Below are positions 58,673 to 61,871 of a DNA stretch of 64,000 nt, in pieces (positions within the stretch are counted from its first letter, which is position 1; each line of letters starts with the position of its first letter). The notes below the pieces were generated by a model. It had not been told where the DNA came from, did not search any database, and worked only from the letters and a program-made list of their open reading frames with translations. The position numbers and the translations under genes were made by a program. This stretch comes from Candidatus Zipacnadum vermilionense (GTDB lineage: Bacteria; Armatimonadota; Zipacnadia; Zipacnadales; Zipacnadaceae), in NCBI GenBank assembly GCA_029821755.1, contig JALGSV010000004.1, forward strand, positions 124,001-188,000. The letters run 5' to 3'.

Positions 58673-60034
58673 CTACTCCTTGATCGGGGGGAGGTCGCCG
58701 AGGGCCTTGTCGATGTTCTCCTGGGGCAGCGAGTAGTCTACCAACTGTCCCGCGAAGTAGGCCTCGTAGCCCGACAGGTCCAGCAAGCCGTGGCCGCTGA
58801 GGTTAAACAGGATCACGCGCTCCTCGCCAGCCTCCTTGGCTTTTTCGGCCTCGATGATGACCTGGCGAACGGCATGGGCGCTCTCTGGCGCCGGAATCCA
58901 GCCCTCCGACCGGGCGAAGGTCACCGCGGCGTCGAAGCACTCCACCTGGTTGAGCGCGGCGGCCTCGATGACCCCGGTGTCCACCAGCAGCGCGACCTCC
59001 GGCGCCACGCCGTGGTAGCGCAAGCCGCCGGCGTGCAAGGGAGCGGGCATGAAGGTGTGGCCCAGCGTGTACATAAACAGCATCGGGGTCATGCCGTTGG
59101 TGTCGCCGAAATCGTAGCGATACGGCGCCCGGGTGAGCGTCGGGCAGGCGGTCGGCTCCACCCCGACGAGACGCGGGTTGGTGGTACCGGCAAGCTTGTC
59201 CGCGGCGAAGGGGAAGGCCAGGCCGGCGAAGTTGCTGCCCCCACCCACGCAGCCGATGACCACGTCGGGGTACTCTCCGGCGATCTCCATCTGTTGTTTC
59301 GCCTCCAGGCCGATGATGCTCTGGTGGATCATGACGTGGTTGAGCACGCTGCCCAGCGAGTAGCGGGAATCGTCGCGCTGCACACAGTCTTCCAGGGCTT
59401 CGGAGATGGCGATGCCCAGGCTGCCGGGGGTGTCGGGGTCCTGGGCGAGGATGCTGCGACCGAACTCCGTCACGTCGCTGGGGCTGGGGATGAAGTCAGC
59501 GCCCCAGACCTGGCCCGTGATGCGGCGGCCGGGCTTGGCGTCGTAGCTCACGCGGACCATGTAGACGGTCAGTTCCATGTCGAAGATGGAGCAGGCCCAG
59601 GCCAGGGCGCTGCCCCACTGGCCGGCGCCGGTCTCGGTGGTCAGGCGCTTGACGCCCTCCTGCTTGTTGTAGTAGGCCTGGGCCAGGGCGGTGTTGGGCT
59701 TGTGGCTGCCGGCGGGACTGACGCCCTCGTACTTGTAGTAGACGTGGGCCGGGGTGTCGAGCGCCTGCTCCAGCCGGTAAGCGCGGTAGAGGGGCGAGGG
59801 CCGGTAGCGGCGATAGGCGTCGATGACCTCGTCAGGGATCTCGATCCAGCGGTCCGAGCTCATCTCCTGCATGATCAGGCCCATGGGGAAGATGGGGGCC
59901 AGGTCGTCGGGCCCAATCGGCTCGCCGGTGCCGGGATGCAGGGGCGGGGCCAAAGGGCGGGGCAGGTCGGGAGCGATGTTGTACCACTTGTCCGGCATGG
60001 CGTCGTGAGGCAGGTCAATGCGGTAGTCTTTCAT
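58673..60034 (-). CDS. trpB2: Tryptophan synthase beta chain, TrpB2 type
   Basis: 453 residues from ATG 60034 with AAGGAGGA. TrpB2 signatures: [40 protein letters not shown] (PLP-binding Lys in SHKPN), [40 protein letters not shown] and the C-terminal [15 protein letters not shown]. TrpB2 is longer than TrpB1 by insertions near the N-terminus and does not need TrpA. It makes tryptophan from indole and serine. The leader upstream (60124-60331) has a Trp-codon attenuator, which supports a real role in tryptophan supply. Confidence 0.95.
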
Positions 60035-60123: not shown

Positions 60124-60149
60124 AAAAAAGGGCCGGACAAGCCGGCCCT
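60124..60149 (-). terminator. Attenuator terminator in the trpB2 leader
   Basis: On the minus strand AGGGCCGG (60149-60142), loop CTTGT, CCGGCCCT (60136-60129), then TTTTTTCTTTG. A textbook intrinsic terminator, 90 bases before the trpB2 start and after the Trp leader peptide. The left arm can also pair with an upstream segment. Confidence 0.93.
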
Positions 60150-60233
60150 GGAGTGGTGCGAGACACAGATTGTAGAAGCTCAAGACACGCTCAGGCCGGC
60201 CCACGTTATCCCCCAGGTCGCCAGACCCAAGCG
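60141..60233 (-). promoter_or_regulatory. Tryptophan attenuator: alternative RNA pairings 1:2, 2:3, 3:4
   Basis: Segment 1 CGCTTGGGTC (60233-60224, over the first Trp codon) can pair with segment 2 GGCCTGAGCG (60197-60188) in ten base pairs including three G-U. Segment 2 GCCGGCCTG (60200-60192) can instead pair with segment 3 CAGGGCCGGC (60150-60141) with one bulged G. Segment 3 forms the terminator with segment 4. Stalling at the Trp codons would mask segment 1 and free 2 to pair with 3 (read-through); a ribosome at the stop codon (60208-60206) would cover segment 2 and leave the terminator. Pairings were worked out by hand. Confidence 0.85.
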
Positions 60234-60289
60234 GTTCGGATCTCCTGCGCGCACGTGCGCTGAGCAAAGATGACGAAGGTGTCACACAT
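60206..60289 (-). CDS. Trp leader peptide of trpB2
   Basis: 27 residues: MCDTFVIFAQRTCAQ then EIRTAWVWRPGG, with two Trp codons (21 and 23) four codons before the stop. The start codon is only ~7 bases after the predicted transcription start, so translation is nearly leaderless. Function would be to sense charged tRNA-Trp, not to make a product. Confidence 0.85.
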   Translation of the reverse strand: MCDTFVIFAQRTCAQEIRTAWVWRPGG

Positions 60290-60302
60290 AGTACGTGGCA
60301 AG

Positions 60303-60331
60303 TTTATAGCGGAATTGGGGGAGGATGTCAA
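60303..60331 (-). promoter_or_regulatory. Promoter of the trp leader/trpB2 unit
   Basis: On the minus strand TTGACA (60331-60326), 17 bases, TATAAA (60308-60303): one mismatch from the sigma-70 consensus. The region between it and the cysS stop is a family B repeat, so transcription of trpB2 is independent of cysS. Confidence 0.9.
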
Positions 60332-60406: not shown

Positions 60407-60454
60407 GGCCGGACTCCCCGCGCACTTCGTGCGCGACTCATCGCGGCCCCTCCT
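60407..60454. repeat. Dispersed palindromic repeat, family B, copy 4 (inverted)
   Basis: GGCCGGACTCCCCGCGCACT, TCGTGCGCGAC, then CGCGGCCCCTCCT; the reverse complement matches 8856-8902 closely, including the GCGCACGAAGTGCGC hairpin. Its last two bases overlap the cysS stop codon. A partial copy (GCGAATCCGGCC) lies just to the left at 60374-60385. Confidence 0.8.
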
Positions 60455-61871
60455 AGGCTCTCCGCCACACCGTCCCTCCCGCTGTGTCCTCCAGGATGAT
60501 CCCCTGTTCCGTCAGTTCGTCCCGGATTTGGTCGGCCTTGGCCCAGTCGCGGGCCGCGCGGGCGGCGGTGCGGGCGGCTACCAGGGCGTCTATCTTGTCA
60601 TCGTCGCTCGTCTGGGGGGCAGCGACCTCGGCGAGGGTGACGGTGAGCAGGCCCAGGACCTGGTCGGTGTCGCGGAGGAAGTCCAGGACGCGGTCGCGGT
60701 CGCCGGTGTGGAATTGGCCGCCCTCGATCAGGGGGTTAGTCTCGGCGAGGACCTCGAAGACCACGCCCAGGGCGCCGGGGACGTTGAGGTCATCGTCCAG
60801 AGCCTCGCGGAACTTGGCGTGGGCACGAGTAAGGATCTCCCCCACCTGAGCGGACTCACCCTCGGGGAGCGGCAGGCGCGGGAGGCGGCTGACGTAGGTG
60901 GTCAGACGGTCGAGAGCCGACTCGCTCTGCTGCAGGCCGTCGAGGGTGAAGTTAAGCTGCTTGCGGTAGTGGGCGGTCATGAGCTGGTGCCGGACGGCCA
61001 TGGGGCGGTGGCCCTTGGCCAGCAGGTCGCCGAGGGTGTAGTAGTTGCCCAGGGACTTGGACATCTTGTGCCCGTCGACGATGAGGAACTCGACGTGGGT
61101 CCAGAAGCGGGAGAAAGGTTGGCCGGTGGCCGCCTCGCTCTGCGCAATCTCGTTCTCGTGGTGCGGAAAGAGCAAGTCCACCGCGCCGGCGTGCAGGTCC
61201 ATGGTCTCGCCGAGGTATTGCATGGACATGGCGGAGCACTCGATATGCCAGCCGGGGCGGCCAGGGCCCCAGGGGCTGTCCCAGGTCGGCTCGCCGGGCT
61301 TGGCCGCCTTCCACAGCACGAAATCGGCGACGGCCTCGCGCTCGTACTCGTCCTCCTGCAAGCGCCCAAACTCGCGGACGTCGGCGGCCTCCTCCGGGCG
61401 GACACCGGAGAGGCGACCGTACTGGGGGAAGGAGGAGATGTCGAAGTAGACCGAGCCGTCGCGGACGTAGGCGTGCCCCTTGTCGAGGAGGGTCTGGATG
61501 AGGGCCAGCATCTGCGGGATGTGCTCGGTGGCGCGGGGGTACTTCCAGGCGGGTGCGATGTTGAGTGTGCACAGGTCCTGGAAGAACAGCTCGGCGTAAC
61601 GCCCAGTGAATTCGGACAGGGGGACGCCCTCGCTCTGGCAGCCGGCGATGGTCTTGTCGTCCACATCGGTGAGGTTCATCACCTGGTGGACCTCCCAGCC
61701 CAGGTAGCGTAGGTAGCGGCAGAGGAGATCGGCGGCCAAGAAGAACCGCAGGTTGCCGATCGTCACGACGTTGTAGACAGTCGGGCCGCAGGTGTAGAGG
61801 CGGACGGTGTGCCCGTCCGCGGGGGCGAAGTCTTCCTCGCGACGGGCTAAGGAGTTGTGGAGGCGGAGCAC
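60453..61871 (-). CDS. cysS: Cysteinyl-tRNA synthetase
   Basis: 472 residues. RLYTCGPTVYNVV carries the zinc Cys; the HIGH motif is replaced by TIGNLRFF; VHQVMNLTDVDDKTI, WHIECSAMSMQYLGETMDLH (second zinc Cys), FPHHENEIAQSEA and the KMSKS loop GHKMSKSLGNYYT follow, and the C-terminal DALR-like helical domain ends KADQIRDELTEQGIILED. It charges tRNA-Cys. All motifs are in place except the first His of HIGH, which is Thr. No start problem: ATG/TTG at 61871 begins the conserved LRLHNSLARREE. Confidence 0.95.
   Translation of the reverse strand: MLRLHNSLARREEDFAPADGHTVRLYTCGPTVYNVVTIGNLRFFLAADLLCRYLRYLGWEVHQVMNLTDVDDKTIAGCQSEGVPLSEFTGRYAELFFQDLCTLNIAPAWKYPRATEHIPQMLALIQTLLDKGHAYVRDGSVYFDISSFPQYGRLSGVRPEEAADVREFGRLQEDEYEREAVADFVLWKAAKPGEPTWDSPWGPGRPGWHIECSAMSMQYLGETMDLHAGAVDLLFPHHENEIAQSEAATGQPFSRFWTHVEFLIVDGHKMSKSLGNYYTLGDLLAKGHRPMAVRHQLMTAHYRKQLNFTLDGLQQSESALDRLTTYVSRLPRLPLPEGESAQVGEILTRAHAKFREALDDDLNVPGALGVVFEVLAETNPLIEGGQFHTGDRDRVLDFLRDTDQVLGLLTVTLAEVAAPQTSDDDKIDALVAARTAARAARDWAKADQIRDELTEQGIILEDTAGGTVWRRA

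Follow-up and report, generated by a model that had tools for sequence, protein, structure and literature searches.

Our analysis points with high confidence to a ribosome-mediated transcription attenuator, sensing charged tRNA-Trp, as the device that controls the trpB2 gene in the window (the whole 64-kb stretch of DNA analysed here), as the original prediction had proposed. Judged from sequence and from folding models, the leader and its terminator would very probably switch trpB2 on when tryptophan is low. This reading is supported by the conservation of promoter, Trp codons and pairings among relatives, by leaders on trpS and trpE, and by folding calculations in which a ribosome was modelled.

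In the proposed mechanism, transcription would begin near position 60296, so that the leader ATG would be preceded by a predicted 5' UTR of only about 6-7 nt. With abundant Trp-tRNA, the ribosome would reach the leader stop codon and cover segment 2, segments 3 and 4 would pair, and RNA polymerase would halt at a tract of six T residues. When Trp-tRNA is scarce, the ribosome would stall at Trp21 or Trp23, segment 2 would pair with the emerging segment 3, the terminator would not form, and trpB2 would be transcribed. Within this scheme we infer the translation of the leader, the stalling of the ribosome, and both the direction and the size of the response.

Architecture of the trpB2 leader

The near-consensus promoter, the 27-residue ORF with Trp-Val-Trp and the stem with a T6 tract that had been described ahead of trpB2 are all present, on the minus strand, with cysS (60453-61871) lying upstream of the leader. 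As read from the sequence, the promoter combines a -35 element TTGACA (60326..60331) with a -10 element TATAAA (60303..60308) after a 17-nt spacer; our promoter scan passed over this pair solely because it requires a T at position 6 of the -10 element. The leader ATG, at 60289 and 13 nt past the -10 element, opens an ORF of 27 codons (MCDTFVIFAQRTCAQEIRTAWVWRPGG, then stop; 60206..60289) that was found in the same frame in the sequence and in the ORF list and that has no Shine-Dalgarno. Its peptide ends in ...TAWVWRPGG-stop, and the regulatory codons TGG-GTC-TGG (60221..60229) encode Trp21, Val22 and Trp23, with the two TGG codons at 60229-60227 and 60223-60221; TGG-NNN-TGG is invariant in alignment A1. 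An Arg directly follows the Trp codons, as it does in E. coli TrpL.

Segment 1 (60220..60235, minus strand, as are all features that follow) overlaps the Trp codons and pairs with segment 2 in the minimum free energy (MFE) structure. Segment 2 (60192..60202), the 5' arm of the antiterminator, occupies the same position in the other five family leaders tested, and segment 3 (60142..60150), supported by duplex and pairing-retention tests, is both the 5' arm of the terminator and the 3' arm of the antiterminator. The predicted intrinsic terminator (60124..60149) has a G+C stem of 8 bp (60149-60142 with 60136-60129; AGGGCCGG-CTTGT-CCGGCCCT, loop CTTGT) followed by T6 (60129-60124), and stands about 90 nt before the trpB2 ATG. 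A short ORF with W-x(0-2)-W and a strong terminator at most 170 nt further on was found at this single site on both strands of the window, and the same scan returned 0 sites in 15 first-order-Markov random sequences of window length, which resembled the window in dinucleotide make-up.

The trpB2 gene itself (58673..60034, 453 aa) starts at ATG 60034 with the Shine-Dalgarno AAGGAGG upstream, and is apparently monocistronic. Its product belongs to TIGR01415 (trpB_rel; 653 bits, cut-off 519) and scores under the cut-off of TIGR00263 (trpB; 158 vs 392). TrpB1, 36% identical to TrpB2, is encoded elsewhere, and a separate trp cluster on another contig holds trpE, trpG, trpD, trpC, trpB1 and trpA, where trpA was assigned by PF00290 and the others were named from their translations. 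The earlier guess of an Armatimonadota-like genome fits the uncultured, WS1/Armatimonadota-like lineage in which we place it.

Mutually exclusive pairings

Of the three alternative pairings proposed for the leader, 2:3 and the terminator held up and 1:2 did so only in part. The 2:3 pairing of the window is better than in shuffled sequences (p=0.012), and the 2:3 duplex surpasses dinucleotide shuffles of the spacer in every leader tested (7/7, p 0.0005-0.026). In six family members segment 2 ends at a fixed place, 27-32 nt past the final Trp codon. In alignment A1 the antiterminator has 95.5% of its cells paired, compared with no more than 56% after a shift of one to three columns, and the terminator, which is kept in relatives, has 93.9%, compared with at most 48.5% when slid. 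Base changes in both structures are mostly one-sided (GC/GU/AU), with few two-sided ones; covariation counts over six sequences, too few for strong statistics, gave no strong excess over column shuffles. The 1:2 pairing is present in the MFE structure and exceeds shuffles in the window (p=0.028), whereas it is inconsistent among the relatives, reaching significance in one. Judged by its sequence, the leader shows all the other features of a classical ribosome-mediated Trp attenuator, and this hairpin is its weakest part.

Folding of the window leader around a modelled ribosome shifted the terminator in the way attenuation predicts. The terminator probability was 0.98 both in free RNA and for a ribosome positioned on the stop codon, and fell to 0.00 with the ribosome stalled at Trp21 and to 0.02 at Trp23. 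The duplex, pairing and modelled-ribosome tests together show that antiterminator and terminator are mutually exclusive and that the antiterminator remains available when the modelled ribosome halts on the Trp codons. Among the trpB2 leaders, an equilibrium switch on the full RNA was clear for the window, G013 and G009 (first-Trp stall) and partial for G002; the automatic equilibrium test, run on 28 leaders, picked incorrect stems for some of them and takes no account of kinetics, and we rely on it for the window, G013 and G009 only. The remaining trpB2 leaders would need a kinetic form of the attenuation model. The MFE of the whole leader was not unusual relative to shuffles (z -0.14), which is what one would expect of a switching RNA; for such RNAs the test is uninformative.

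Conservation among relatives

A promoter, a WxWR leader and a terminator precede trpB2 in the same order in six family relatives from three genera, namely G013 (same genus), G001, G002 and G003 (genus g2), and G008 and G009 (genus g3), and in six related trpB2 leaders the -35 element, in the matching position, is TTGACA or TTGACG. The Trp codons and terminator, whose loss in relatives would have spoken against the prediction, are thus kept across these six species. The leader peptide of G013 is MRCATAHVTRELHTAWVWRPPD (then stop), and the C-terminus TAWVWRP is identical in the same-genus relative L003; the five leaders from g2 and g3 carry ...RCKWAWRxF, and all have a strong promoter together with a stem resembling CATGGGCCGG-CTCGT-CCGGCCCATGAC-TTTT. 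The leader is gone before trpB2 in three other g2 species (G005, G006, G007), two of which show terminator remnants, and is absent before trpB2 in two g4 species (G011, G012). Phylum-wide, in about 120 genomes with trpB2, G274 alone among those examined beyond the family has a comparable leader (MTVLKAAISRLWWWQAHSVCP, then stop). A residue-by-residue motif control on 194 trpB2 upstream regions was weak, as common residues match too.

Other conserved elements occur around these loci. In four of them (L006, L008, L011 and L016, genera g2 and g3) the first terminator is followed at a short distance by another conserved hairpin that looks like a terminator, GGTCGTGGGCC...ACGCGACC TTTTGCTTTTT, and parts of this second hairpin remain in species that have lost the leader (L004, L005, L007). 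A cobalamin riboswitch lies near the trpB2 locus of G009 (L006:3045-3219).

The pattern of conservation bears on whether the leader also yields a trans-acting micropeptide like the peTrpL of Sinorhizobium meliloti (PMC7298713). Besides this precedent, the identity of the TAWVWRP C-terminus in two species and its near identity in one trpS leader would be consistent with such a function. However, the N-terminal halves of the peptides diverge freely and conservation falls on the RNA segments with the regulatory codons, for which attenuation alone accounts; we therefore regard an additional peptide function as improbable.

A proposed regulon including trpS and trpE

A covariance model built from six trpB2 leaders and searched against 291 genomes of the phylum retrieved the family trpB2 leaders together with leaders before trpS. 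The trpS leader of G013 (MKREVTCTSGEIRAAWVWRPWR, then stop) matched with E 2e-10 and precedes a gene encoding tryptophan--tRNA ligase (TIGR00233), and weaker trpS-leader matches came from G268, G269, G277, G278 and G247. By direct inspection, W-x-W(-R) leaders precede 13/15 of the orthologues in this trpS clade of the order, compared with 1/15 for the second clade of trpS (Fisher p=2e-5). Most of these leaders are followed by a stem CCGTGGGC...GCCCACGG and a T tract, and most trpS leaders retain WxWR, as do the family's remaining trpB2 leaders. Trp-rich leaders of the MKSDTPGRVWFSWWYWFT-stop type, with terminators, also precede trpE in five relatives.

These findings weigh on the possibility that the stem is a constitutive terminator of the upstream cysS, next to a Trp-containing ORF that arose by chance, with trpB2 transcribed from its own start below the stem. 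The stem does sit in the intergenic region below cysS, and a weaker start below the terminator is compatible with the sequence. Against this stand the near-consensus promoter between cysS and the leader, the absence of such a site from the random controls, and the conservation of WxWR and the pairings over three genera with recurrence before trpS, which leave a merely constitutive cysS terminator very unlikely. The remaining candidate, Trp control by another sensor such as a T-box, a TRAP-like protein or a riboswitch, has the UGG-specifier T-boxes before four trpB2 genes of other phyla in its favour, but is the least probable of all given that at gathering threshold the window has no T-box (the RF00230 covariance model did not match the leader), no riboswitch and no member of any further Rfam family, that sub-threshold T-box and riboswitch matches are at chance level, and that conservation extends to the Trp codons and to the spacing between them and segment 2.

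Within the genome to which the window belongs, the covariance model finds the trpB2 site only, and trpE and trpS were seen on inspection to have no such leaders. Going by that model and by the inspection of these two genes, trpB2 seems to be the sole gene of the genome to have kept the attenuator. The trpS gene of this genome (L285, G000:C71:95495) has a TTGACA-TATCTT-like promoter that ends about 6 nt before the ATG and no attenuator, unlike 13/15 orthologues; the device has apparently been lost there, and trpS itself is possibly leaderless.

The original prediction was right that the trpB2 leader is almost leaderless. Where the promoter of a trpB2, trpS or trpE leader is clear, the ATG mostly lies 9-23 nt past the -10 element, and the 5' UTR is therefore often just a few nucleotides; a Shine-Dalgarno is usually lacking. 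A near-leaderless start is common to most of the leaders and not peculiar to the window, and a leaderless trpL is also known in Sinorhizobium meliloti (PMC7298713).

Taken together, these results make it somewhat probable that a hitherto undescribed family of sequence-related WxWR attenuators with near-leaderless ORFs forms a Trp regulon of trpS, trpB2 and a more diverged trpE leader across the Armatimonadota/WS1-type lineage, and that TrpB2, wired in unrelated phyla as well to Trp-tRNA charging, has Trp supply as its physiological role. The role of TrpB2 has been debated between Trp synthesis, indole scavenging and other reactions such as serine deamination (PMC1854888, PMC2700814, PMC11917138). 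The trpB2 attenuator, the trpS device, the trpE leaders and the Trp-specifier T-boxes elsewhere all suggest that, for the cell, TrpB2 is a supplier of Trp that is needed at low Trp-tRNA. What makes the case interesting is the proposed regulon, together with the Trp wiring that trpB2 shows repeatedly in other phyla. Leader-peptide attenuation with near-leaderless ORFs is also extended to an uncultured lineage.

Comparison with known systems

Like the classical trp attenuators (E. coli trpL, and the trp leaders of Corynebacterium and Streptomyces, PMC1262725), the window leader has a short ORF in which Trp codons cluster, an antiterminator that overlaps the terminator, a T tract and a Trp gene behind it. 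Unlike them, it controls a stand-alone gene of the TrpB2 subfamily, spaces its Trp residues as W-x-W followed by R, has a poorly conserved protector hairpin and begins with an almost leaderless ORF.

Attenuators have been predicted in Actinobacteria before trp operons, trpS and 'trpB2A' (PMC1262725), and T-boxes on trpE and trpB-like genes have been reported in Dehalococcoides (PMC2494555); control of TrpB2 by Trp is consequently not wholly unprecedented, while the attenuator is new for the TrpB2 subfamily and for this lineage. The Corynebacterium diphtheriae trpB2A likewise has a predicted leader attenuator before a gene named trpB2, but it is paired with trpA and comes from another phylum, and TIGR01415 membership is not evident from the available text of that source. 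The Dehalococcoides T-boxes also tie trpB-like expression to Trp-tRNA status. We found T-box leaders (RF00230, 105-109 bits) before trpB2 in four Chloroflexi/Dehalococcoidia MAGs (L068, L085, L090 and L108), and in 4/4 the GAA in the specifier loop is followed by UGG; unlike the window leader, these T-boxes and those of Dehalococcoides bind tRNA directly and have no leader peptide.

Short W-rich ORFs also occur before trpB2 in L073 (NNWWWRVL-stop, Zixibacteria), L069 (NWWWSS-stop, Acidimicrobium MAG), L083 (SYWWCTFT-stop, Latescibacterota), L044 (EWNWRFQTR-stop, Neomarinimicrobiota), L097 (LWWTWQL-stop, unclassified MAG) and L087 (Neomarinimicrobiota). Going by their sequences, the first five may be independent Trp leaders, and we offer all six as leads.

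The trpS leaders resemble the candidate attenuators of Streptomyces trpS (PMC1262725), where leader-peptide attenuation is likewise proposed for tryptophanyl-tRNA synthetase, but belong to another phylum, and here the trpS and trpB2 leaders are related in sequence (E 2e-10 for the R1 match). The S. meliloti trpL (PMC7298713) shares with the window a leader ORF at or near the 5' end of the transcript and the lack of a Shine-Dalgarno, whereas it controls trpE(G) in another phylum. None of the papers covered by our search reports attenuation in Armatimonadetes. The mechanism is classical; what is new is its TrpB2-subfamily target, its WS1/Armatimonadota-like lineage, the proposed trpS-trpB2-trpE regulon and the nearly leaderless leader ORFs.
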